A DNA stretch of 43,643 bases from a virus, in IMG/VR virus record IMGVR_UViG_3300048999_000344, positions 1-43,643 of that record; one strand, given 5' to 3'. Shown here piece after piece: positions 613-42,834 of the stretch (the stretch's first letter is position 1; the number at the start of each line of letters is the position of its first letter). The position numbers and the translations under genes were made by a program. Below the pieces are notes generated by a model. That model worked only from the letters and a program-made list of their open reading frames with translations, ran no database searches and was not told the DNA's origin.

Positions 613-688
613 GTGGCTGTAGCTCAGTTGGTAGAGTCCAGGATTGTGATTCCTGTTGTCGTGGGTTCGAGCCCCATCAGCCACCCCA
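613..688 (+). tRNA. tRNA-His (anticodon GTG)
   Basis: Full cloverleaf. Acceptor stem GTGGCTG pairs with CAGCCAC, the anticodon loop is TTGTGAT with anticodon GTG, and the T-loop is GTTCGAGCC. C73 and an encoded CCA end at 688. G612 can supply the extra G(-1) typical of tRNA-His. The 3' half from 642 onward is the phage att core, so the gene stays intact after integration because the phage carries the same 3' sequence. Confidence 0.97.
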
Positions 689-689
689 A
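642..689 (+). repeat. attL core (48-bp direct repeat, left copy)
   Basis: Bases 642-689 are identical to 42787-42834; the match stops one base beyond on each side (G641 against A42786, C690 against A42835). The repeat covers the anticodon arm, T-arm and acceptor 3' strand of tRNA-His, a classic target for tyrosine integrases. The actual crossover point inside the 48 bp cannot be told from sequence. Confidence 0.95.
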
Positions 690-784: not shown

Positions 785-1804
785 CTACAACCCTTTTCGA
801 TTGACCGTCTTGTTTCGGTCGTAAATGCGGGCGGTTGTCGCGGGATTCGCATGCAGATCTGGCAGTGTTCCGCGCTCCGATTTGTGCTGCGTGACGTAGT
901 GCGCGCGTAGGTCGTGAAACGTGAAACGGCGGCTGATAACTTTCTCTTTCAGCGCTTCGTTCATCAGCTTTCCCCAATTGCCTTTAAAGCCGCTGCTCGT
1001 ATAGGCGTTGCCGAAGCGATTGCGGAACACATAAAGACAATCCTTCTCCGTGCGCAAAACAGCCAGGCGGTCGAGCAGTTCGGCCAGCCTCGGCGTAATT
1101 TCAATCTGCTCGATCACTTCCCCGCGTTTCTTTCCCCGCTGCTTTGCCCGCTTCACCCGGATCGTCGCTGCTGCGCGATCGATCTGCGGCCAGGCCAGGT
1201 CCAAAAATTCCACCTTTCGATTGCCGGCGAGTGCGGCATACTCCGCCGCCATGCCCATAACCGCTTTCTGACCACCCTTGGCGGATAGCCAAACAGAGAA
1301 CGCCGCGAACTCCTTCGGGTCCGGCGCCTCCGTGCGCGGTTGTTCTTCATTCCGGCGAACTTCGCGACACGGGTTATGTTTCGCCTCGCCGCGCTCGATT
1401 GCCAAGCCAATCAGGTTGGAAAGCAGCGCAACCTCGCGGTTGGCTCGGACGGGAGCGTCTGCGCGTTCCTTGCGTAGATAGCGCGCGATGTCTGGCGCCT
1501 CGATGTCGGATGCCCGCGCCTTGTTGAAAATCTTCAGAATCATGAGGCTGCACTGGGTGTAGTCAGTGCGGGTGTCCGGCGCGTAGCGCTTCCACTGTGT
1601 CGTCTCTTGAAATTGCTCCCACAGCTTGCCGATTGTTCCAAGATCGCCGCTGGCGCCGAGCAGATCGAGTACCTTCCGCACAGCGGCTGTCTTGTCCATT
1701 CCGAGGCTGATCGGCTTGGCACCCACCGGGTGGTAGCGGTAGCTGATTCCTTTTTTTCGCTTGATTGCCTCCATTCGTGGCAACAAGCCGTCCCTGCGTT
1801 TCAT
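785..1804 (-). CDS. int: Tyrosine-family site-specific integrase
   Basis: Catalyses integration and excision between phage and tRNA-His att sites. The 339-residue protein has an N-terminal arm-binding region, a SAM-like core-binding domain at about 55-150 and a catalytic domain at about 165-335. Catalytic residues visible: R196 in AGNRKVEF, H297-x-x-R300 in FHDLRAH, H318 in LHANPATT and the nucleophile Y328 in ARIYDR; the beta-hairpin Lys is near 219. The start at 1804 was chosen because its ATG overlaps the stop of the upstream gene (ATGA). A longer frame to 1903 has no support. It is the last gene of the leftward operon, beside attL. Confidence 0.95.
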   Translation of the reverse strand: MKRRDGLLPRMEAIKRKKGISYRYHPVGAKPISLGMDKTAAVRKVLDLLGASGDLGTIGKLWEQFQETTQWKRYAPDTRTDYTQCSLMILKIFNKARASDIEAPDIARYLRKERADAPVRANREVALLSNLIGLAIERGEAKHNPCREVRRNEEQPRTEAPDPKEFAAFSVWLSAKGGQKAVMGMAAEYAALAGNRKVEFLDLAWPQIDRAAATIRVKRAKQRGKKRGEVIEQIEITPRLAELLDRLAVLRTEKDCLYVFRNRFGNAYTSSGFKGNWGKLMNEALKEKVISRRFTFHDLRAHYVTQHKSERGTLPDLHANPATTARIYDRNKTVNRKGL

Positions 1805-2007
1805 GCGACTTCCCAATTTATGTTGGCCTTGCGGCTTGCCTCTGCGGGCTTGTGGTACTGCTCCCACGTCAGGAGCGGGTGACCGTCGATCTTGCGCGGG
1901 CACTTGATTCCTATGTTTTGCTCAATCCACCTGATCTGCGCGGCTCCCTGCTTCAGGCCGCCGGTCAGGTCAATCAAGTCTTGAACGGTCATCACTCCGG
2001 TTTTCAT
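1801..2007 (-). CDS. DUF4224-like protein upstream of integrase
   Basis: 68 residues. The pattern is MTVQDLIDLTGG, then a lysine/glutamine-rich helix, then W-x-x-QNIGIKCPRKIDGHPLLTWEQ. It matches the small DUF4224 family commonly encoded just upstream of phage integrases in beta-proteobacteria. The N-terminal part looks like a helix-turn-helix, so an excisionase-like or DNA-binding role is plausible but not shown. Its stop overlaps the integrase start and its own ATG overlaps the stop of a 22-codon reading frame, implying translational coupling. Confidence 0.8.
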   Translation of the reverse strand: MKTGVMTVQDLIDLTGGLKQGAAQIRWIEQNIGIKCPRKIDGHPLLTWEQYHKPAEASRKANINWEVA

Positions 2008-3234: not shown

Positions 3235-3594
3235 TTACAAAAGCTCCATTTGTTCGAAAGGCATGTCGGGCCATGTCATCCAGCTTTTACGGGCGTTCGG
3301 CAACCAGTGCGTGACCTGCAGGTTCCAGTCGACGTGCAGCCCGCAGACAAGTTTTCCTGCCAGCGGCACGATGTGGTCGACCACGTATTGCTCCCCTGTC
3401 TCGCGCGTCAGTCGTTCAGCTTCCGCATAAATCGCGCGGATCTTCGCCTTGTCCGCCCACGTCGGCGTGGCGCGCCGTTCACGAGCGCGCCGGCGCATGC
3501 CGTGTTGGCGGCTCGTATGCAGGATCGGAGCTCGGCGCTTCACGGGCACGAAGAGCGGCCCTGCGTGATCGCCACCCACCAGATCAAGCGGCAT
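3235..3594 (-). CDS. HNH-type nuclease
   Basis: 119 residues. The C-terminal part has the HNH core VDHIVPL, then VCGLHVDWNLQV, then a final N in LPNARKSW. This matches the phage HNH subgroup with DHxxPL...GLHV...NLQ. A basic N-terminal region (MRRRARERR) may contact DNA. It cuts DNA with one metal ion if active. The start is uncertain: the ATG at 3594 overlaps the thiF-like stop by 11 bases, and an internal ATG at 3498 is possible. Lying directly after the PRTRC genes, it could be either phage DNA metabolism or an accessory of that module. Confidence 0.8.
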   Translation of the reverse strand: MPLDLVGGDHAGPLFVPVKRRAPILHTSRQHGMRRRARERRATPTWADKAKIRAIYAEAERLTRETGEQYVVDHIVPLAGKLVCGLHVDWNLQVTHWLPNARKSWMTWPDMPFEQMELL

Positions 3595-4324
3595 TGAAGT
3601 TATCCACAGGCAACGGGCGGACGTGCCCAGTCTTCAGGTTGACGAACGCGCCGCACCAGCTGAGCCGGCCGTGGCGGAAAAACTCCCACAGGATCCCGAG
3701 CGCCGGCGTCACGATCGCCTGATTGATGAAAAGCTCCTGGCGCTCAAGCGCTTCGGCCAGTCCGCAACTCGGCGTGTCATCTTCCGGCACCGTTGTGTCG
3801 ATCAATTCCGGCAGTACGACATACGGCCAGCGCAGCGACGTGCTTTCCGGCTCTGGGTTCGGCCGGGCGTGCCCGAAAATCACTTGGCCATCGCTCGCTC
3901 GATTTCCCAGATCCATCACATATCCGGCTGCGCGGGAGAGGGCCGGCTCAAGCTTCGCTCGCGCAGCTGCGCTGTCGACACACATAATTGCTATGCCCGG
4001 GCCCACGTGGATCACCTCTTGCGAGCTGGCCGGAATTGGACGCGCGTGCCAGTCGAGGCCGAAGAAAGCATTCAACCGGTGTACAAGCACGACGCTCTTG
4101 TACTGGCCGACGTCGGCCGGGCTGAACATCTGCCGACCGATGTTCGCCTCGCTGACCGTGTCGCCGTCGAACGCCGTCACGTGCAGGCCGGGATGCCCGA
4201 GTGCGGTAAGCGCGTGATTGAGGCGCGCCAGACCAGTGAGCATCTGCGAGCCGTTTCCGCCGCACCCGATCAGCGCGATGTTCACGCGCCGGTCGAGGAA
4301 ATGCGCGGGCGTTATGTGAGTCAT
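3584..4324 (-). CDS. PRTRC system ThiF family protein (E1-like)
   Basis: 246 residues with an E1/ThiF/MoeB-type Rossmann fold. The nucleotide-binding loop is GCGGNGS at 20-26, followed by acidic FDGD at 52-55, N61-x-x-R64 and K76, the ATP-contact set of E1-like enzymes. C187 in DTPSCG is a candidate for a catalytic thiol. Enzymes of this class adenylate the C-terminus of a ubiquitin-like protein and may form a thioester with it. The partner would be PRTRC-C encoded upstream. It is the last gene of the PRTRC run, with ATGA overlap to PRTRC-A. Not a thiamine-synthesis ThiF by context. Confidence 0.92.
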   Translation of the reverse strand: MTHITPAHFLDRRVNIALIGCGGNGSQMLTGLARLNHALTALGHPGLHVTAFDGDTVSEANIGRQMFSPADVGQYKSVVLVHRLNAFFGLDWHARPIPASSQEVIHVGPGIAIMCVDSAAARAKLEPALSRAAGYVMDLGNRASDGQVIFGHARPNPEPESTSLRWPYVVLPELIDTTVPEDDTPSCGLAEALERQELFINQAIVTPALGILWEFFRHGRLSWCGAFVNLKTGHVRPLPVDNFNAA

Positions 4325-5112
4325 GCCGGCTCCGGAACCTTAAAAACTGCGGCGGCGGGCACTTTCAGCGGAATGAACATACCGAGCACGCAAAGGCGGA
4401 ATGCAACGCTTGGCGTGCCATCGGCATCCAGGCCGCCGAGCACTGCGGAGATCTTCACTTCGCCGGCGTCGTCCGCGTCGTCTTGCGGACTGAAGTAAGC
4501 CATTCCAGCGCCATGACTGTGAATGTCGATCGCAAGCGACTCGTTCGGCGCAAGCACTGGTCGTTCGAACGTGATCGCGCCCGGCGTCGCTTCCGACACG
4601 TGAAGCGCCTTGTACGCAAGCTCTTGCATGTCGTGGTCCCATACGATCCACGCAGCGTGCTCATTCGGCAGCGCGCTGCGCGCTTCCTCGGCGAACGCCT
4701 GGACGAAGGGAAGCGCGACACCAAGCCGGCCAAATGCCAGTTCGATCTTCGGCTCGATGTCGCCGTACGGTGGCCGCGGGCTTGCTCCGGCGTGAGCAGA
4801 CAGGCGCTGGATTACGTGTAGCCATGGACGCCGCACCTCGACAAAGACGCCTTCGGCCGTCATCAAAAAGCGATGGCCTACTTCGAGAAGCGGCGCGAAC
4901 TTGGCGTGTTTGGGCACAGCAATGGTCGGGGCGCTGTCGAACAACGCGATGTCGAGCGGCAGGGATTCGTCATCCCCGGCAGCTGCGATCGCCCGCGGCT
5001 TTGCACGCGCCAGCTCGTCGGCGACGCCAGACGAAAATTGCTCGAGCGCCGTTGCGATGGCCCGCAATCCGGCTTGCGTGGCGTTTTGAAATGAAGCGAG
5101 TAGCTTGTCCAT
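4321..5112 (-). CDS. PRTRC system protein A (JAMM/MPN metallopeptidase)
   Basis: 263 residues from the ATG at 5112. That start has GAGGA upstream and lies just after the stop of B; the alternative ATG at 5127 overlaps B and lacks a binding site. The C-terminal JAB/MPN domain shows the zinc motif HSHGAGMAYFSPQDD, that is H198-x-H200-x7-S208-x2-D211, with E151 in LPNEHAAW as the likely catalytic acid. Such enzymes remove or trim ubiquitin-like proteins. The N-terminal 100 residues are helical and specific to PRTRC-A. Coupled to ThiF by ATGA. Confidence 0.92.
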   Translation of the reverse strand: MDKLLASFQNATQAGLRAIATALEQFSSGVADELARAKPRAIAAAGDDESLPLDIALFDSAPTIAVPKHAKFAPLLEVGHRFLMTAEGVFVEVRRPWLHVIQRLSAHAGASPRPPYGDIEPKIELAFGRLGVALPFVQAFAEEARSALPNEHAAWIVWDHDMQELAYKALHVSEATPGAITFERPVLAPNESLAIDIHSHGAGMAYFSPQDDADDAGEVKISAVLGGLDADGTPSVAFRLCVLGMFIPLKVPAAAVFKVPEPA

Positions 5113-5116
5113 CGTG

Positions 5117-5830
5117 TCAGTCCTCATTGGTGCTGGAGCCGATCGCTGTCGCGAGGGTTTGTTTCGCGTCGATCAGGCGGTCAAGTGGGAATTCGGCGCC
5201 GTCGAGCAAATCCAGCCACAGACGTTCAGCGCCCCCGCGCCTGTGGATAAGTCGGTCATTGTTCGTGTGAGTGAAGCGACTGCGAAAGAACGCGTCTTCG
5301 TACGGCTTGATGCTGTCCGTATTGATTGCGTCGGGAGTTTGCACATTGCCCACGCAGATCTCGCCGCCTTCCCAAACGTTGTAATACGGAGCCGTGTAGA
5401 GCTTTGTTGCCGGACCAGGTCGCGCGTTATCGCGCAAAGCGAACACGAACCAGCTCGTGCGATTGACGATGAACACGAGCGGTGGGTGTGCTGCGTCGCC
5501 GGCACGTTCGCCGATCTTGTCCTTTGTGTTGAACCATACGCGCCGCGTACATGCGGGTACCCACCAGGCGAGCTGGTTCGGCGCGAGATACGCCACGCGA
5601 TCGTGGATAAATCCGCGATAACTCGTTTTCCGGGCCGCAAGGTCGGCGATGTCCGCCAGCTGGTCGAGCGTGATCGGCACGCCGGCCAGCAGCGTGGGCT
5701 TGCCGTCGACAACACGCGCGCTATGTTGGGTCGCATAAATGTGCTGGCTGTTCTGCGAACGGTAGAACAGGAGTGCGCTATCTAGTGCGAGCTCAACATC
5801 GTTTTCGTGGGCGATCGAGACGGTGCTCAT
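5117..5830 (-). CDS. PRTRC system protein B (E2-like)
   Basis: 237 residues. The C-terminal half carries the PRTRC-B signature PYYNVWEGGEICVGN, then DAFFRSRFTH. The family is assigned to prokaryotic E2-like folds (Prok-E2_D). C159 in GEICVG is the position expected for the E2 thioester cysteine and H188 follows. It would accept the ubiquitin-like protein from the ThiF-like E1 and transfer it to a target or lipid. The start is fixed by ATGA overlap with PRTRC-F. The targets are unknown for any PRTRC system as far as I know. Confidence 0.9.
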   Translation of the reverse strand: MSTVSIAHENDVELALDSALLFYRSQNSQHIYATQHSARVVDGKPTLLAGVPITLDQLADIADLAARKTSYRGFIHDRVAYLAPNQLAWWVPACTRRVWFNTKDKIGERAGDAAHPPLVFIVNRTSWFVFALRDNARPGPATKLYTAPYYNVWEGGEICVGNVQTPDAINTDSIKPYEDAFFRSRFTHTNNDRLIHRRGGAERLWLDLLDGAEFPLDRLIDAKQTLATAIGSSTNED

Positions 5831-6870
5831 ACACGCACCTGCACGCGAGTCTTAGGCGATTGAAATTCGTCCCGGTCGAAAATATCAAGGACGCGCTCGA
5901 CCGCCTTTGCAAGCAGCGCCGTCGATTCCATCCGCTTCAACCAGTCGGCAATGTCGGCGCCGACGATCTTCAGCGGAGTAACTGAAGACGCGATCACGCA
6001 ATCGCCTTCCGACGCTTGATGCAAATAATCATCGACAACGCGACCGACGATGTCGTCTTCACTCCATCGGACGATCAGACCGAAATCAATTAGGTCTGCG
6101 CCAATGTCTTCCGAGCGCACGTCCGCGAACGGACCATAGAACCGGGCAATGTTCCAAACCGTGTCCATCGCGTCGACCACTTCGCGGGCGAGCGGATCTC
6201 GGCCAGCAGCGAGTGCGATCTGCCGGCGGGTAAGTACACGACGTGGTGCCGCTGCCCATTCAGGCATGCCCTCGAAAAACTGCGTGCGCGTAAAAAAGTC
6301 GTTCGTTTCGAGTAGATCTTCGACGCTGTCGTATCCATTCAATTCGGCCGCTTGCGCCATCGCCTCTTGCTCGTCCGATTCACCGTACCAGTACATGTAT
6401 TCGGCGAGGCTTAAAGTGAAGCCTGGAGTGCAAACGGACGGCAGCATGCTGAATGCGTCATGGAGCGTCGCCAGCACCGTTTGACCAAGGCCAGCCCGGA
6501 TAGCCTCCAACTTTTCCATGCCGCGTCCGATCAGGATTTCACGGCACGACACCGGGCCGTTTGCCGTCTGAATCAGCGCCCAAAGGTGTTCTTCCCTGTG
6601 CTGCGGGAAACCGTGCTCCGGTGCCTGCTCGATCCGCAGGTGCCAGTCGAAGAGGTTCATTCCTTCCGTGATCCGCTCCCACCTGCGGGAAAGCGCCGCC
6701 TGTATCAGCGCGATTTCAGACTTCGGCCGTTGGCGAACGTCGCTCTCGGCAATGACGCCCGATTCGAGCATCGATAGCGCGAGCGGATGGGAAAACGAAT
6801 CAGCCGACCGGATCGTATAAACAGCAGGCACATCAGCGAGTGACGGCAGCGCAAGAGCAGAGAAGGTCAT
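5827..6870 (-). CDS. PRTRC system protein F
   Basis: 347 residues from the ATG at 6870, which overlaps the stop of the 60-residue upstream frame (ATGA). An upstream in-frame extension to 7107 is a shadow of PRTRC-C. Recognised as PRTRC-F by position between C and B and by features such as VYTIRSADSF, then NLFDWHLRIEQAPEHGF and SLAEYMYWYGESDEQEA. Mostly helical, with no catalytic motif seen. The role is unknown; a substrate adaptor is conceivable. It is the largest protein of the cassette. Confidence 0.88.
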   Translation of the reverse strand: MTFSALALPSLADVPAVYTIRSADSFSHPLALSMLESGVIAESDVRQRPKSEIALIQAALSRRWERITEGMNLFDWHLRIEQAPEHGFPQHREEHLWALIQTANGPVSCREILIGRGMEKLEAIRAGLGQTVLATLHDAFSMLPSVCTPGFTLSLAEYMYWYGESDEQEAMAQAAELNGYDSVEDLLETNDFFTRTQFFEGMPEWAAAPRRVLTRRQIALAAGRDPLAREVVDAMDTVWNIARFYGPFADVRSEDIGADLIDFGLIVRWSEDDIVGRVVDDYLHQASEGDCVIASSVTPLKIVGADIADWLKRMESTALLAKAVERVLDIFDRDEFQSPKTRVQVRV

Positions 6871-7049
6871 GGCAACACCGGCATATGAGTAACAGGTAAC
6901 TGCAGACGCACGCCGGTGGCACGCTTCGTCGACACTGCATGGAGCTTCGTCGCAACGCGATCGTTCACCAGGTGCATATCGACGCGATGGCCGGCCGAAG
7001 GTGAGAGCGGACCGCGTTCGAGCTCGGCGCGAATCTGATCGAGTGTCAC
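6867..7049 (-). CDS. Unknown 60-residue protein inside the PRTRC operon
   Basis: The GTG start at 7049 overlaps the stop of PRTRC-C (GTGA) and the stop overlaps the PRTRC-F start (ATGA), so the frame is coupled on both sides. The sequence begins TLDQIRAELERGPLSPSAGH, with a helix followed by RVDMHLVNDRVATKLHAVST, which looks like beta strands, and ends THMPVLP. I do not recognise the family. Its tight coupling and exact fit between two PRTRC genes argue that it is real and belongs to the cassette. Confidence 0.7.
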   Translation of the reverse strand: MTLDQIRAELERGPLSPSAGHRVDMHLVNDRVATKLHAVSTKRATGVRLQLPVTHMPVLP

Positions 7050-7255
7050 AGCGCACCCTTCGTGCCGACGGCCCGACGAAACGTGAACACGTTCTTGTTG
7101 CCGGCAACTTCGGGGCCTTCGATCTCGGCGTTGACGATCTCCGGATACGTATTGCCGTAGAAATCGCGCACTTGCTGAAGCGAGAAAGTAGGCGAAGGAT
7201 CGGTGAGCTTCGCGCCGTTGTAACGAAACTCGCGAGCGAGTGTTTCGGTTTTCAC
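7046..7255 (-). CDS. PRTRC system protein C (ubiquitin-like)
   Basis: 69 residues from a GTG start with AAGGA eight bases upstream. The sequence LAREFRYNGAKLTDPSPTFS, then QQVRDFYGNTYPEIVNAEIE, then NVFTFRRAVGTKG is the PRTRC-C pattern and belongs to the prokaryotic ubiquitin-like family (Prok_Ub, beta-grasp fold). It is the presumed modifier handled by the ThiF-like, B and A proteins. The chain ends GTKG-Ala-Leu, so two residues follow the last glycine. Whether they must be removed is an open point. Confidence 0.92.
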   Translation of the reverse strand: MKTETLAREFRYNGAKLTDPSPTFSLQQVRDFYGNTYPEIVNAEIEGPEVAGNKNVFTFRRAVGTKGAL

Positions 7256-7266
7256 GGTGTGGGTCC

Positions 7267-7794
7267 TTAGAGAAGGTCGACGCCGTCGTCTTCGGCGGCG
7301 GGCTGCGCGTTGCTGGAATCCTGCTCAGCGGGTTCCGCGGGCGTTTCGGGCGTGATGTGCTCGGCATCAGCATCGATCCCGGGAATTTGGGTTTGACGCG
7401 GATCGACCGGCAGCGCGTCGGCAGCGCCAGCGCTGTCGCTCGTATCAGTCGGCACCGTTGTTTCGGCTGCACGCTTACGACCGCCCTTGCCCTTTGGCGA
7501 AGGAGCGGGCAGCGCTGGCGTCGACGACGCGGTTCCATTTGCGGCACTGGCGGCGCGCGCCTGGTCGAGCACAGACAACGTGCTGGGCTCATAAATCTCA
7601 ACTGCGGCCGCAAAGTCGCGGTCCAACTCGTCGGGCGTGGCGAGGATGGAAAGCGGATAGAGCGTTTTTTCGCCTTTGGCGTCGTCATTGGCACGCGGAG
7701 TTACATTCACGCGCAATTGATCGCCTTCGGCAGTGATCAAAAGCGTGAGTGTTGTCTTTTGCGCCAGCGGATAAAGTGATGCGAACAGGGACAT
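7267..7794 (-). CDS. PRTRC system protein E
   Basis: 175 residues. The start at 7794 has GAGG five bases upstream; a GTG two codons earlier is less likely. The conserved N-terminal 85 residues read MSLFASLYPLAQKTTLTLLI, followed by LRVNVTPRAND and LYPLSILATPDELD, a beta-rich domain typical of PRTRC-E. The remaining half is low-complexity, rich in Ala, Pro and acidic residues, and probably disordered. First gene of the cassette; role unknown. No ParB-like gene precedes it, unlike plasmid PRTRC loci. Confidence 0.88.
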   Translation of the reverse strand: MSLFASLYPLAQKTTLTLLITAEGDQLRVNVTPRANDDAKGEKTLYPLSILATPDELDRDFAAAVEIYEPSTLSVLDQARAASAANGTASSTPALPAPSPKGKGGRKRAAETTVPTDTSDSAGAADALPVDPRQTQIPGIDADAEHITPETPAEPAEQDSSNAQPAAEDDGVDLL

Positions 7795-7821
7795 GGTCAC
7801 CTCGTGTTGTGCTGCGTTGAA

Positions 7822-8112
7822 TCAGGCCGCAAGGCCGTCATAATTTCGATCGGCGAAATCGGGATCGCCGGGGTATCGATCAGATCCATCGGCGCGATGC
7901 CAGCAAAACAAACTGCCGCGGCGATGCATGAAGTGATAGCCTGCGCACGTGCAGCCCATGGCGCGCGTGTTGCGCTTGGTCATCCAAGCGTCGATGCGAA
8001 AACTGGAAGAACCGCAGTCACTGCATCGCGGTGGCCGGGTATATTCCTCGGGCTTCAGCCGCAGCACCTTTCGCTTTTCGCACTTGCGGCATCGACAGTG
8101 ATAACGCGACAC
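7822..8112 (-). CDS. Cysteine-rich zinc-binding-like phage protein
   Basis: 96 residues from a GTG start with GAGGA upstream. Cysteine pairs appear in HCRCRKCEKRK, CSDCGSSS, CTCAGYHFMH and LFCWHR, suggesting two small zinc-ribbon-like modules. The N-terminus is strongly basic. Likely nucleic-acid or protein binding; the exact family is not recognised. It precedes PRTRC-E by 27 bp in the leftward operon. Confidence 0.7.
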   Translation of the reverse strand: MSRYHCRCRKCEKRKVLRLKPEEYTRPPRCSDCGSSSFRIDAWMTKRNTRAMGCTCAGYHFMHRRGSLFCWHRADGSDRYPGDPDFADRNYDGLAA

Positions 8113-8725: not shown

Positions 8726-8754
8726 ATTAAACACTATGTTTATCGTGACGTCAA
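8726..8754 (-). promoter_or_regulatory. Leftward early promoter (PL-like)
   Basis: On the minus strand TTGACG (8749-8754) and TTTAAT (8726-8731) are separated by exactly 17 bp. It directs transcription leftward into the small membrane genes, the PRTRC cassette and the integrase. Two operator palindromes overlap the -35 and -10 elements. Confidence 0.8.
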
Positions 8755-8765
8755 ACATTTTGTTT
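8729..8765. promoter_or_regulatory. Two left operators (AAACANNNTGTTT)
   Basis: AAACACTATGTTT at 8729-8741 covers the -10 element and AAACATTTTGTTT at 8753-8765 abuts the -35. Both have perfect 5-bp arms and their centres are 24 bp apart. The same palindrome occurs at the repressor/Cro intergenic region, so these are the likely binding sites of the phage repressor. Confidence 0.75.
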
Positions 8766-8804
8766 ATAAATCGGCGGTGCGGGGGAATGGCATGTTTAAG
8801 GACG

Positions 8805-8829
8805 CAAAAAAGCCCGCACGAAGCGGGCT
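8805..8829 (-). terminator. Terminator of the lipoprotein gene
   Basis: On the minus strand AGCCCGC, loop TTCGT, GCGGGCT, then six T. It lies 26 bp beyond the lipoprotein stop and just upstream of the left promoter, insulating the two units. Confidence 0.85.
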
Positions 8830-8854: not shown

Positions 8855-9628
8855 TCACTTCAAACCATCGAGCCCAGCTTTGAAGTTGACTGCCATGCGG
8901 GTGGCGGCCGAGTCTGTCCACGCGCCAATTACCGTTGCGTCAGGTGTGCGGCAGTCGGCGCCCATGTGAGCGATCAGGTACGGATCTGTCGTAACGCCAT
9001 TTGCGTCCGTCACGATTCCACGGTCTACGGTGCCGACTACATATGCGAACGCTGTCGCAGTGGCGTTGTTTTCAGCCTGGATCAGCCCGTCCGAAGCGGT
9101 GTGCCCGGGAGGTAGATCACATGTCGGGATTGGCGTCAGTATGAAAGTCTGCTTCGCCGCAAGGTCCATCTGGAAGATGAACGTGGTGAGGTCGGACTGA
9201 AATTGATCGAGCGCGGCTACTTGCGCCGGGTCGTCGCGGCTCGTCATCATGTCGTCGAGCTGGAAGTTCACGACCGCATATCCTGTCGGCTGGACGGTCA
9301 GCTGATCGTTCGTCGGCCGGACGCCACCGTTCACGCTCATGACCAAGTCGTGCAGGGCGGTCGCGGACATGGTGACTGGCGTTACTGAGGCGGTCACGCC
9401 CTGCGCGGCGAGCGCTTGCGTCAACGCCGTAACTGTTTCGGCTGCGCCTGCGTCCGACGCCGCGCCGACCACTGCGGCTTTCGAAGTCGCACCGCCGTTT
9501 GCCTGGGGCATGGGCGCACCGTAGTACTGGATCGACATTACCGGCGCCGCTTTTGCGGGACCGTCGCCACCGCCGCCGCACGCAGCCAGCGACAGAGCCG
9601 CGAACAGCGGAAGGATTGTTCTATTCAT
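8855..9628 (-). CDS. Lipoprotein, possible degenerate GDSL-type hydrolase
   Basis: 257 residues from the ATG at 9628; an ATG at 9667 gives an N-terminus less like a signal peptide. MNRTILPLFAALSLAACGGG is a lipoprotein signal with lipobox LAAC, so it should be lipid-anchored after export. The mature part, with SIQYYGAP near its start and later VVNFQLDD, recalls SGNH/GDSL hydrolase blocks. The Ser of the expected GDS is not visible, so activity is doubtful. It forms its own transcription unit with a terminator, outside the operator-controlled operon, and may be a lysogenic-conversion gene changing the cell surface. Confidence 0.7.
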   Translation of the reverse strand: MNRTILPLFAALSLAACGGGGDGPAKAAPVMSIQYYGAPMPQANGGATSKAAVVGAASDAGAAETVTALTQALAAQGVTASVTPVTMSATALHDLVMSVNGGVRPTNDQLTVQPTGYAVVNFQLDDMMTSRDDPAQVAALDQFQSDLTTFIFQMDLAAKQTFILTPIPTCDLPPGHTASDGLIQAENNATATAFAYVVGTVDRGIVTDANGVTTDPYLIAHMGADCRTPDATVIGAWTDSAATRMAVNFKAGLDGLK

Positions 9629-9726
9629 TCTGATGGTCCCCGAAAGGTTTTGTAATTGAGCTTTCAAGTTAACATCAGAAGATTACGGGCGCAACGTTCG
9701 AATGCAGTCTCGATGTCACATCCAAA

Positions 9727-9785: not shown

Positions 9786-10655
9786 TCAGTCGCGTGACGA
9801 AACGGCACGAAATATTAGTACTGGAGTGACTCCATATGCCGATGGGGACCGACCCATCAGCTCTCGAATGGCGCCGAGCAGCGTTGAAGCCGCTGACATT
9901 AGCTGGCTGTTGACGACCTCCCCGGTATCATCATCATCTTCCGCGTCCGGGGTTGCATCTAGGACTGCGAGCACGTGCCAAACACCTCGAATCGTACTTC
10001 CGTGAGTCAGCGCAAGGGACGCGGCACTAACGATCAGATGTTGGTCCTGTAAACAAGCCCACACATTATTGCCGGCGCGGTCGACCATCGTGAGTTGCGG
10101 CGCGGGCGGCATTACCTTAAGGATCTCGCCGATGCCTTTCATCATGGCCTTGGCTGAGGTCAATTGGGTTTTGTTCTGGTGCGTAACCTTTGCGTCGGCT
10201 GCCATGTAAGACGTGCCAGGCGTCCAGACATCCTGAAGGAGCTTAATATCGAGCAGCTGGGGAGTACCCGTAACGAGTACTAGTGAGCCAATTTTTGCGG
10301 CACTTAGGTCGCGCTCGATGAAATCAAGTTCATCCAGCCGATCGAGAACATTCAGAGGCAACGACCAAGAGGAGTCAAAGCTGCGCTCGTACGATAAATT
10401 GGCGCTCTGCTGAGAGCCAATCTTGCCACTGACCCCGCCTTTTATATCGGCTTTGGCTATTAGCGCGTTAGCTTTCGCCGAGGCGTCGACCCCGCCACCT
10501 ACTTCGCTAGTTGCCGTCTCGCCAGTCTGGGAGGTATGTTTGTGCCCTATGGGCACGCCATCGTCTACGACTTGCGCAAGCCAGGACCTTAATCGTTCTG
10601 TGTCTGCGTATAAAAAGTCATAGATGGAATCGATGCTTTGTGACTCGCGCGCCAT
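9786..10655 (-). CDS. DUF6414-like protein
   Basis: 289 residues. The N-terminal SIDSIYDFLYADTERLRSWL matches the YDFLYxDxxR block that I associate with DUF6414 proteins. A Gly/Ala/Lys-rich stretch follows at about 50-90, then a beta-rich domain containing IGSLVLVTGTPQLLDI and NVWACLQDQHLIVS. No transmembrane segment or nuclease motif is seen. The ATG at 10655 lies within the end of the preceding small gene (38-bp overlap). As an independently terminated unit beside the repressor, it could be an exclusion or defence gene expressed in the lysogen; that is inference from position. Confidence 0.65.
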   Translation of the reverse strand: MARESQSIDSIYDFLYADTERLRSWLAQVVDDGVPIGHKHTSQTGETATSEVGGGVDASAKANALIAKADIKGGVSGKIGSQQSANLSYERSFDSSWSLPLNVLDRLDELDFIERDLSAAKIGSLVLVTGTPQLLDIKLLQDVWTPGTSYMAADAKVTHQNKTQLTSAKAMMKGIGEILKVMPPAPQLTMVDRAGNNVWACLQDQHLIVSAASLALTHGSTIRGVWHVLAVLDATPDAEDDDDTGEVVNSQLMSAASTLLGAIRELMGRSPSAYGVTPVLIFRAVSSRD

Positions 10656-11167: not shown

Positions 11168-12163
11168 TCAGACGGGTCGCCACATGGCGCGTTTTGCGAT
11201 CCCGGCTACAAAGTGCATCTTCTCTATTTCGGCATCCGTGAATGCAATCGACGGGTGCGCATCGTTCGTCGAAATGAGGTGAGTGCGACCGTCTCGCCGA
11301 TACAAGAACTCTTTGACCATGACGCGGCCGTCGGTCGACTTGACCAACACTTCGTCGCCTGGCTCCGGCTCGTGATTCGGTTCGATAACAACGAACTCGC
11401 CCGCCTTGATGCGCGGACGCATAGAGTCGCCTTCGCACTTGAGGGCGTATGCGTCGGGGTCGTTCGTGGGAAAGGTGACGAACCCTTCACCGTGGCCAAC
11501 TGGATACTCCAGGTCGGCCCAAAATCCGTTGTCACCTAGCTGTGCCATGCCAACCACTGGGATAGCCTTCCAATTTGTGATTGGGACAGGCTTCCACTCG
11601 TCTGCATATCGAATTGCAACACCTGGCTCCCCCTTGCCTTTGGCGATCCATACAGAGTTGACGCCATATTTATTTTGAATGGCGACAGCCTGAGCCACTG
11701 TGATGTGCGGACCCTCGCCGCGTAACCACTGGGCTGCAGTCTCAACCCCTACATCTGCTACGGAGGCCACCTCGGCGGCCGTGAGTCCCTTTAGACCAAG
11801 GGCTGCTTGAATTCGCTGGGCTGACGTTTTCATCGTCTCGCCGCCCAGGGAAGAAATACTACTCCCGATTTCGTCAGGTGATTCCAAGCTTTTGGACAGT
11901 TTTTGTCCGCTGTTCGAAAGATCGGAATCGGGAGAACCGTGATTGCCCTCCGCCGTCATCGGCGGTTGGCCGGACATCAGCCAGAGAGCGCTGCACCCTA
12001 GTTTTTCTTGGGCCGCAAGCATCCCCGCCTTCGACATCCCGCGCCGCTCCCAGTTGTTAATGACCTGGGGAGACTCGTTCAGGAAGCGTGCGATTTCAGT
12101 CTGCGTAGTCAGCCCGTGCAACAGGCGCGCTGCTTCATACAGCCGTTTCATGGTGTCGTGCAT
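11168..12163 (-). CDS. CI-like S24-peptidase repressor with two HTH domains
   Basis: 331 residues from the ATG at 12163 (12151 is also possible). A longer frame to 12265 would run through the operators and is rejected. An N-terminal helix-turn-helix lies at about 5-70 (TQTEIARFLNESPQVINNWE). A second lies at about 111-180 (LTAAEVASVADVGVETAAQW). The C-terminal S24 autoprotease has Ser247 in EGDSM and Lys284 in VMVKEF, with a presumed cleavage region near VGMAQLG. Expected to hold lysogeny and to self-cleave with RecA during SOS. Two complete DNA-binding units in one chain is unusual. Confidence 0.9.
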   Translation of the reverse strand: MHDTMKRLYEAARLLHGLTTQTEIARFLNESPQVINNWERRGMSKAGMLAAQEKLGCSALWLMSGQPPMTAEGNHGSPDSDLSNSGQKLSKSLESPDEIGSSISSLGGETMKTSAQRIQAALGLKGLTAAEVASVADVGVETAAQWLRGEGPHITVAQAVAIQNKYGVNSVWIAKGKGEPGVAIRYADEWKPVPITNWKAIPVVGMAQLGDNGFWADLEYPVGHGEGFVTFPTNDPDAYALKCEGDSMRPRIKAGEFVVIEPNHEPEPGDEVLVKSTDGRVMVKEFLYRRDGRTHLISTNDAHPSIAFTDAEIEKMHFVAGIAKRAMWRPV

Positions 12164-12184
12164 GTCCGGGATGTTCTCGCAATT

Positions 12185-12236
12185 AAACACTTTGTTGTTC
12201 AACGTAGTGTTTGCGTTTTCATTAAACATGGTGTTT
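12185..12236. promoter_or_regulatory. Right operator cluster between repressor and Cro
   Basis: Three versions of the AAACANNNTGTTT palindrome: 12185-12197 (one mismatch at the last base), 12200-12212 (two mismatches) and 12224-12236 (perfect arms). Centre spacings are 15 and 24 bp. The third overlaps the rightward -10 element; the first lies close to the repressor start. A clear repressor promoter on the minus strand could not be assigned. Confidence 0.7.
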
Positions 12237-12239
12237 AAT
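12211..12239 (+). promoter_or_regulatory. Rightward early promoter (PR-like)
   Basis: TTGCGT at 12211-12216 and TTTAAT at 12234-12239 are spaced 17 bp apart. The -10 element is the same hexamer as in the leftward promoter. It ends only six bases before the Cro-like ATG, so transcription would start at or next to the A of the ATG. Confidence 0.65.
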
Positions 12240-12245
12240 GTGTCC

Positions 12246-12455
12246 ATGGAAATCAAACTCGCCACCGCCGAAGAAGATCGCCGCTTAATCGAACGCCTCG
12301 GTGGCGCGTCGAAGGTGGCCGAGATGCTGGGTTACGCCAAAGAGAAAGGCGGGGTTCAGCGCGTTCACAACTGGAAAGAGCGCGGCATCCCGCCGGCGGT
12401 GAAGCTGACTCGTCCCGACCTTTTCCTTCGGTCGTTGTCGGAAGAGGCTGCTTGA
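12246..12455 (+). CDS. Cro-like DNA-binding protein
   Basis: 69 residues, basic, with a helix-turn-helix in RLIERLGGASKVAEMLGYAK, followed by GGVQRVHNWKERGIPPAVKL. The NWKERG block is typical of phage Cro/YdaS-type regulators. It diverges from the repressor across the operator cluster, as expected for the lytic-switch partner. The start at 12246 follows the operators. There is little room for a leader or ribosome site, suggesting leaderless translation. Confidence 0.85.
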   Translation: MEIKLATAEEDRRLIERLGGASKVAEMLGYAKEKGGVQRVHNWKERGIPPAVKLTRPDLFLRSLSEEAA

Positions 12456-34922: not shown

Positions 34923-35675
34923 ATGAACGAAACGACGAAGAACGCGATCGCGGATCACGCGCTCGCGGAGTACCCGCGCGAGTGCTGCGGGCTGGTTGTC
35001 GTGCGCTCCGGCGAAGAGGTCTATGCGCGGTGTCGGAACATCGCTGAAAAACCGACCGAGCACTTCGTGATGTCGCCGCAGGATTACGCGGGTGCCGAAG
35101 ACGCGGGGCAGGTCGTGGCCGTCGTGCACTCGCATCCCGGCGCCGCGGCGCGACCGAGCATGACCGATAAGGCCATGTGCGAAACGAGCGGTATCGATAC
35201 CTGGATCATTGTCGCGCTCGGCGTCCAAGGCGATGGATCTATCGCGGTCGATGACTGGTGCGAGTTCGGCCCGTCCGGATATATCCCGCCGCTGCTCGGC
35301 CGAGAGTTCTCGCATGGCACTTTGGATTGTTTCACCCTCATTCGCGATTACTACCGCCTCGAGCGAAACGTCACGCTGCCCGACTTCGCGCGTGCGGATA
35401 AGTGGTGGGAAGACGGGGCATCCAATCTGTACATCGATAACTACGAGAAGGCCGGTTTCGAGAATCTTGGGCCGGACGTTGAGCCGGCGACCGGTGACGT
35501 TTTGTTGATGCAGATCCGCAGCAAAAATGGGGTGCCGAATCACGCCGGCGTGTATCTGGGCGACGGCATCTTTATCCATCACATGCACGGGCAATTGTCC
35601 GGCCGCACGGTTTGGGGCGGCATGTGGGCGCAGTGCCTGCGCGGTGTGCTTCGATACGTAGGAGAAAAGGCGTGA
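34923..35675 (+). CDS. Tail tip peptidase K-like (JAMM + NlpC/P60)
   Basis: 250 residues. The N-terminal JAB/MPN domain has E20, H69-x-H71-x7-S79-x2-D82 (VHSHPGAAARPSMTD). The C-terminal NlpC/P60 domain has C136 in LDCFTLIRDYY, H207 in NHAGVYLG and H219/H220. In lambda, K acts in tail tip assembly; the two domains suggest peptide-bond cutting in protein and in peptidoglycan. Stop overlaps the next GTG. Confidence 0.93.
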   Translation: MNETTKNAIADHALAEYPRECCGLVVVRSGEEVYARCRNIAEKPTEHFVMSPQDYAGAEDAGQVVAVVHSHPGAAARPSMTDKAMCETSGIDTWIIVALGVQGDGSIAVDDWCEFGPSGYIPPLLGREFSHGTLDCFTLIRDYYRLERNVTLPDFARADKWWEDGASNLYIDNYEKAGFENLGPDVEPATGDVLLMQIRSKNGVPNHAGVYLGDGIFIHHMHGQLSGRTVWGGMWAQCLRGVLRYVGEKA

Positions 35676-42786: not shown

Positions 42787-42834
42787 GATTGTGATTCCTG
42801 TTGTCGTGGGTTCGAGCCCCATCAGCCACCCCAA
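42787..42834 (+). repeat. attR core (48-bp direct repeat, right copy)
   Basis: Identical to 642-689, the 3' end of tRNA-His. Here it is a tRNA remnant: the acceptor 5' strand and D-arm are missing, so it cannot make a tRNA. Confidence 0.95.

Follow-up and report, generated by a model that had tools for sequence, protein, structure and literature searches.

A ParB-less derivative of the plasmid PRTRC system in the predicted early lytic operon of a siphovirus prophage

Here we describe a 43,643-nucleotide stretch of viral DNA (IMG/VR record IMGVR_UViG_3300048999_000344, positions 1 to 43,643; hereafter "the window") in which a prophage carries a seven-gene cassette of the PRTRC type, i.e., genes for a ubiquitin-like modifier (C), an E1-like activating enzyme (ThiF), an E2-like conjugating enzyme (B) and a JAMM peptidase (A), together with the proteins E, F and x60. 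A full ubiquitin-like kit, previously known mainly from plasmids, is thus situated in what its sequence indicates to be a phage early lytic operon, and this suggests that phages use protein tagging during infection. We propose, at a probability of roughly 0.5, that the cassette is a conjugation/deconjugation operon turned on early in the lytic cycle to modify host proteins for lytic growth. PRTRC corresponds to operon type 6d of Iyer, Burroughs and Aravind (2006), described in bacteria, and addiction or protection roles were suggested for such operons; occurrence of type 6d in phages is not reported in the passages of that article consulted (PMC1779556), and of 26 papers in which the term PRTRC occurs, none is concerned, by its title or abstract, with phages or with a demonstrated function.

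The cassette encodes a predicted E1/E2/modifier/JAMM set

The genes lie on the minus strand in the order E-C-x60-F-B-A-ThiF, with neighbours either overlapping by 4-11 nucleotides or separated by an 11-nucleotide gap; a zinc-ribbon gene, ZnR (8112-7822), and an HNH endonuclease-like gene (3594-3235) are also part of this tight cluster.

7822-8112, minus strand: ZnR, zinc-ribbon protein directly upstream of E (phrog_17384, E 6.6e-38)
7267-7800, minus strand: PRTRC E, with an alternative ATG at 7794 (TIGR03741, E 7e-20)
7046-7255, minus strand: PRTRC C, ubiquitin-like, GTKG (Gly67) followed by AL (TIGR03738, E 1.6e-31; Prok_Ub)
6867-7049, minus strand: x60, small protein with C-terminal MPVLP, its GTG start overlapping the C stop by 4 nucleotides (in 71/71 phage loci)
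5827-6870, minus strand: PRTRC F, fast-diverging alpha-helical protein and candidate adaptor (TIGR03742, E 2.1e-37; AlphaFold2 model, mean confidence score [pLDDT] 90)
5117-5830, minus strand: PRTRC B, E2-like conjugating enzyme, Cys159 and His188 (TIGR03737, E 1.7e-67; Prok-E2_D)
4321-5127, minus strand: PRTRC A, JAMM/JAB peptidase, E156, H203, H205, S213 and D216 (TIGR03735, E 5.9e-68; Prok-JAB)
3584-4324, minus strand: PRTRC ThiF, E1-like activating enzyme, GxGGxG from residue 20, candidate catalytic Cys187 (TIGR03736, E 4.7e-90)
3235-3594, minus strand: HNH endonuclease-like gene that overlaps ThiF at its end and flanks the cassette slot downstream (phrog_26577, full length 1-119, E 5.7e-56)

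All six named proteins exceed the curated NCBIfam cut-offs (E 4.7e-90 to 7e-20), with agreement from Pfam (ThiF, Prok-JAB, Prok-E2_D, Prok_Ub). The original prediction for this DNA had placed seven overlapping or near-abutting genes at these positions, had assigned six of them to PRTRC families and had read them as a complete modifier/E1/E2/JAMM set with Cys159 in B; each of these statements stands. Residues C159 and H188 of B are invariant across the copies compared, while the GxGGxG motif and Cys187 of ThiF, as well as E156, H203, H205, S213 and D216 of A, are conserved in phage and plasmid copies alike. Between phage pairs, the ratio of nonsynonymous to synonymous substitution rates (dN/dS) is mostly 0.02-0.2 for the enzymes and C. 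The predicted E1, E2, modifier and JAMM enzymes are thus complete, with catalytic residues intact and under purifying selection.

Were C instead a sulfur carrier resembling ThiS or MoaD, the cassette would carry out a sulfur-transfer or cofactor reaction, a reading to which the ThiF family of the E1 and the beta-grasp model of C both lend themselves. We consider it very improbable: every locus has an E2, conserved and with its Cys and His invariant, the JAMM peptidase is found in nearly all loci, and no cofactor genes were seen nearby.

F and x60 are the fastest-diverging cassette proteins between phage pairs, F retaining 74% identity to its copy in the related locus L002 (comparison loci are given L numbers), where B retains 94%; such rapid divergence of F is as expected for a target adaptor. 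A fold search of the PDB with the F model returned nothing below E 0.8, and nothing meaningful was matched when the PDB was searched with the sequences of B, F and C; the same search with ThiF reached human UBA6 at E 0.005. For x60, no match was obtained in NCBIfam, Pfam, PHROGs or PADLOC, and PHROGs contains no PRTRC components apart from a weak ThiF match.

The putative cassette promoter lies under putative repressor operators

The window encodes a siphovirus gene set of HK97-type head and lambda-type tail genes (TerL, portal, S49 protease, HK97-type capsid, lambda-type tape measure, gpL and J), along with a lambda O-type replication protein, an S24 repressor and a CII-like activator. An identical 48-bp repeat, comprising the last 47 bases of tRNA-His and 1 base beyond, is present at 642-689 and 42787-42834.

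642-689, plus strand: attL, 3' part of tRNA-His (48-bp exact repeat with 42787-42834)
785-1903, minus strand: integrase at the end of the leftward operon, adjoining the att repeat (Phage_integrase in Pfam, phrog_1 in PHROGs)
42787-42834, plus strand: attR (48-bp exact repeat with 642-689)

Because of these head, tail, replication and repressor genes and the exact att repeat, the element is identified from its sequence as an integrated siphovirus of ~42 kb, with the cassette well inside. No phage record was matched by megablast with 2-20 kb of the window.

A good candidate sigma-70-type promoter is located ~0.6 kb upstream of ZnR, with its -10 and -35 elements each covered by a copy of a palindrome that also occurs beside the repressor gene.

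8726-8754, minus strand: putative PL-type promoter TTGACG-17-TTTAAT (from sequence)
8726-8744, no strand assigned: putative repressor operator ATTAAACACTATGTTTATC, 2 mismatches, overlapping the -10 (palindrome search)
8750-8768, no strand assigned: second putative operator GTCAAACATTTTGTTTATA, 4 mismatches, overlapping the -35 (palindrome search)
8811-8829, minus strand: intrinsic terminator between the upstream lysogenic-type genes and the PL-type promoter (terminator scan)
11168-12265, minus strand: S24/HTH CI-type repressor (Pfam Peptidase_S24, HTH_3)
12221-12239, no strand assigned: perfect putative operator ATTAAACATGGTGTTTAAT beside the repressor/cro control region; a weaker copy lies at 12182-12200 (palindrome search)

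The 19-bp palindrome, ATTAAACA-N3-TGTTTAAT, is perfect at 12221-12239, beside the repressor/cro control region. Four sites with up to 4 mismatches occur in the 43.6 kb, two in each region (8726 and 8750; 12182 and 12221), and at up to 3 mismatches, two sites are found where 0.01 would be expected. The PL-type promoter was located by reading the sequence; the automatic scan missed it because that scan demands an A at position 2 of the -10.

This arrangement is that of lambda, with OL/PL and OR as the counterparts of the operators at the cassette promoter and at cI/cro, and the order of repressor (11168-12265), operon and integrase (785-1903) matches a lambda-type early left operon. The same palindrome and layout recur in relatives L001, L007, L009 and L057. 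Others retain the layout with different operators, namely CAACAAA-N5-TTTGTTG (L014, L016, L017), TTAGGCATGCCTAA (L041), TTAGCC-N3-GGCTAA (L044) and still other sequences (L005/L008, L046, L068); the search in relatives was heuristic, and several gave no clear pair. Conservation of the placement while the operator sequence changes argues that repressor control has been maintained. The cassette is thus assigned to a PL-type early lytic operon with a predicted promoter under putative repressor operators, and since these operators cover the promoter, it would be silent in the lysogen and expressed early once infection or induction has occurred. Both the siphovirus prophage and the early operon of the original prediction are thereby borne out, the latter at the level of sequence.

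Such control bears on the possibility that the cassette provides anti-phage immunity protecting the lysogen. Prophages often carry defence genes. Furthermore, the other bacterial ubiquitin-like conjugation systems studied act in anti-phage defence, including CBASS (PMC10097602) and Bil (as cited in PMC13373217). Protection of the lysogen is nonetheless improbable here, because a cassette under repressor control should be off in precisely that state; moreover, the lysogenic-conversion position is held by separate, terminator-closed genes (8855-9640 and 9786-10655). In PADLOC, no full-length component match was found; ThiF showed partial similarity in its E1 domain (best E 3e-7, against E1-E2 models), and A gave a single match at E 0.03. 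The shared features with CBASS Cap2/Cap3 and Bil amount to E1, E2 and JAB chemistry, whereas the prophage cassette has a separate PRTRC-family E1 and E2, a dedicated Prok_Ub modifier and a phage early operon, with neither a CD-NTase nor an effector.

The genes at 8855-9640 and 9786-10655, between cI and the PL-type promoter and each with its own terminator, occupy the place of lambda rex. The latter, encoding 289 amino acids (phrog_9699), is 99% identical in L002, has divergent copies in L250, L252 and L253, and is a candidate lysogenic-conversion or exclusion gene; the former, lipoprotein-like (phrog_8011), is a candidate superinfection-exclusion factor. In a related phage, a two-gene unit is found between cI and the PL region (L004:4856-6276).

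Phage copies form one ParB-less lineage

When B was searched by tblastn against 50,697 phage records, a single match was obtained, in Burkholderia gladioli phage BgVeeders33, a contractile-tailed myovirus isolated from sewage; its annotation lists the cassette genes as hypothetical proteins and a "dinucleotide-utilizing enzyme". In IMG/VR, at least 61 contigs carry the cassette, 42 found through B and 19 more through a scan with ZnR (two of the latter, L215 and L223, being truncated). Phage-type copies also account for 11 of 70 B loci in ~85,000 species genomes (L060-L070), some of these probably being the same prophages as IMG/VR entries. Two unrelated Pfam portal families were detected, in 15 records each (a portal being found in 30 of 36 records tested), and the cassette is therefore found on several phage backbones. 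On plasmids, B was matched in 196 of 72,556 records.

The plasmid order ParB-E-C-F-B-A-ThiF was seen in five of the six plasmid regions examined, and among the plasmid or chromosomal loci L071-L125, most have ParB upstream of E. The PRTRC ParB model TIGR03734, on the other hand, matched none of 36 phage records, the window included. Protein D is not annotated in the six plasmid regions, TIGR03739 itself not having been searched for. In a tree of B, ThiF and A (117 taxa, 682 columns), the 53 phage taxa split exactly from the other 64 with a local support of 0.85, and the phage copies are on this phylogeny a separate clade and one lineage. As ParB belongs to the definition of PRTRC, we file the phage form as a predicted phage-adapted, ParB-less derivative of the plasmid system, not as a full member.

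In comparison with plasmid PRTRC (NCBIfam TIGR03734-03742), the phage form therefore has the same families, order of E, C, F, B, A and ThiF, and catalytic residues; it differs in its lack of ParB, its separate clade, a C that is usually a long putative precursor, a constant x60, a ZnR that is often upstream and an early operon under apparent repressor control. The original proposal that PRTRC-B/C would be found in tail-bearing prophages has thus been answered by the viral contigs and the isolated phage above, while its label of a PRTRC cassette applies to the E, C, F, B, A and ThiF families and fails for ParB. Its "unknown 60-mer", for which no library match was obtained, proves to be a conserved component that is universal in the phage form.

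That the cassette might be neutral plasmid cargo trapped in a prophage is suggested by how common PRTRC is on Burkholderiaceae plasmids. This reading is already contradicted by the present data, however, as the phage copies form one deep clade, show the same gene order across more than 60 records and evolve under purifying selection; we thus give it hardly any credence.

ZnR is directly upstream of the cassette in one half of the phage lineage, and the cassette is directly downstream of ZnR in 38 of 55 viral ZnR loci. Where phages lack the cassette, ZnR and HNH adjoin each other in Mica, L137 and L139; in others, different genes lie between the two or at their side, ParB-like genes among them, and the ZnR-HNH region of BcepC6B carries a DNA methyltransferase. 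Given these differing contents, the slot that the cassette occupies is a variable one.

The modifier is probably made as a precursor

The ubiquitin-like domain of C ends in a conserved GxKG, which reads GTKG in every phage copy. An extension of 60-100 amino acids follows GTKG in 65 of 71 phage loci, whereas 62 of 63 plasmid or chromosomal C proteins end 0-7 residues past GxKG and one is long-tailed; as the sequences are related, a simple significance test would overstate this contrast. The tails are of several types, and in most pairs the selection on them is purifying, if weaker. In L003, L010-L012, L038, L045, L048-L052 and L054-L058, the tail is x60 itself, joined in frame to C; in the window, x60 is a separate gene and C ends in GTKG-AL, not in GTKG. 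Fused or separate, x60 or a counterpart is present between C and F in 71 of the 71 phage loci having both genes, and always ends in LP. The C-x60 fusion model gave weak ubiquitin-like fold matches only, with the tail modelled at low confidence.

In eukaryotes, ubiquitin-ribosomal protein fusions and the SUMO and NEDD8 precursors bear an extension after the C-terminal Gly that must be removed. Phage C has the same layout of a ubiquitin-like domain followed by an extension, although the phage tails are other, mutually diverse small domains, and their processing is a prediction. In bacteria, the JAB protease Cap3 cuts a fusion exactly after the C-terminal residue of its modifier (PMC10097602). 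On the strength of the tail after GTKG and its likeness to these cases, long-tailed phage C is probably a precursor for the JAMM protease A.

Two further observations concern these tails. In L216-L219, L222, L224, L225, L231, L238, L239 and L261, a variable linker of ~30-40 amino acids separates GTKG from a conserved C-terminal tail domain, and so highly variable a linker is an unusual pattern for a precursor peptide. The sole plasmid-type C with a 70-residue tail, which fills the gap to F, is that of L115 (L115:3327-3599) and may represent the same fusion outside phages.

A proposed mechanism and its target

In the mechanism we favour, repression would be lifted upon infection or induction, allowing the cassette to be expressed. 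C would be synthesised as a precursor (GTKG-AL in the window, GTKG plus a 60-100-residue domain in most relatives), which A would cleave after GTKG. ThiF would then activate Gly67 of C and hand the modifier to Cys159 of B, which would attach it to target proteins, the rapidly diverging F (possibly together with E and x60) serving as adaptor; A could also reverse the attachment. Most speculatively, the targets would be host proteins, most likely those of defence or takeover.

A host-side target is favoured by the predicted early lytic timing, the divergence of F and x60, the BcepC6B methyltransferase, and the anti-defence-like neighbourhoods of plasmid relatives. Orphan N6 methylases, SNF2 plus methylase or Mom genes are found beside the latter in several loci, a setting that resembles plasmid leading regions of the anti-defence type (PMC11541004). 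We thus infer counter-defence or host takeover from context. In a Noviherbaspirillum locus, a gene of the Mom DNA-modification family is located a few genes upstream of a plasmid-type cassette (L125:2817-3686).

The main rival places the substrates within the phage itself: its replication, recombination or DNA-handling proteins would be modified, in a role taken over from the maintenance or establishment of plasmids. Early expression would fit this, ParB leads the plasmid cassettes, and ParB-like genes recur near ZnR and HNH in cassette-less phages. We nevertheless find it less likely, in that ParB is exactly the part lost by the phage lineage, and no phage substrate common to all carriers is evident when the cassette occurs alongside two unrelated types of portal and also in a myovirus.

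Several points weigh against our proposal of an early operon that modifies host proteins: (i) our literature search returned no report of conjugation by any PRTRC system, (ii) no target is named by the sequence evidence, (iii) the case for counter-defence from gene neighbourhoods is indirect and draws on few loci, (iv) other phages hold unrelated genes or none in the slot, (v) the C tail in the window is only two residues long, and (vi) the operators and promoter are read from sequence. More tentatively still, the phage copies could constitute a monophyletic, immediate-early E1-E2-modifier-JAMM class in which a self-locking precursor is fused to interchangeable small domains that the JAMM protein must release, with host defence or regulatory proteins as the tagged species.

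A phage precedent for a ubiquitin-like domain with a JAB protein exists in the lambda tail-assembly proteins I and K, described as a ubiquitin-like domain plus JAB/NlpC by Iyer et al. (PMC1779556). A K-like JAB+NlpC/P60 protein is also encoded in the prophage (34923-35675). The lambda pair resembles the cassette in these two domains but differs in lacking an E1 or E2, in being a late tail gene set and in its unrelated location.

An overlooked small gene in plasmid cassettes

In 53 of 60 plasmid or chromosomal loci, a short open reading frame lies between C and F that is absent from the annotations examined. It is ~72 codons long, overlaps C at its end and, in many cases, F at its annotated start, and typically reads MRK..LLKAL...EPPERAVF..DE..C.SIL...LPLPDIDLPMIF.

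L022:6733-6948, L083:8744-8959 and L024:6738-6956: examples of the hidden open reading frame, with 50 further plasmid or chromosomal loci

For the pairs compared, dN/dS is ~0.1-0.6 in the hidden frame and 0.8-5 in the annotated N-terminal extension of F within the overlap; given this contrast, the short frame is very probably a genuine gene under purifying selection, and many annotated F starts are probably wrong. No convincing NCBIfam match was found for it. Homology with phage x60 was considered and is unsupported (HMM E 0.04 or worse, hhalign probability 0.4%), position and a similar LP-containing C-terminus being the only links between the two.

Implications

This overlooked gene between C and F alters the parts list of most PRTRC cassettes examined. 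More broadly, ubiquitin-like conjugation in bacteria has until now been linked chiefly to anti-phage defence; with tailed phages carrying a complete set under predicted lytic-switch control, tagging may also be a viral weapon. PRTRC, a common plasmid module of unassigned role, would thus become open to direct tests: an inducible phage, offering a defined promoter, a catalytic cysteine and a predicted site of precursor cleavage, would be a far easier object of study than a megaplasmid.

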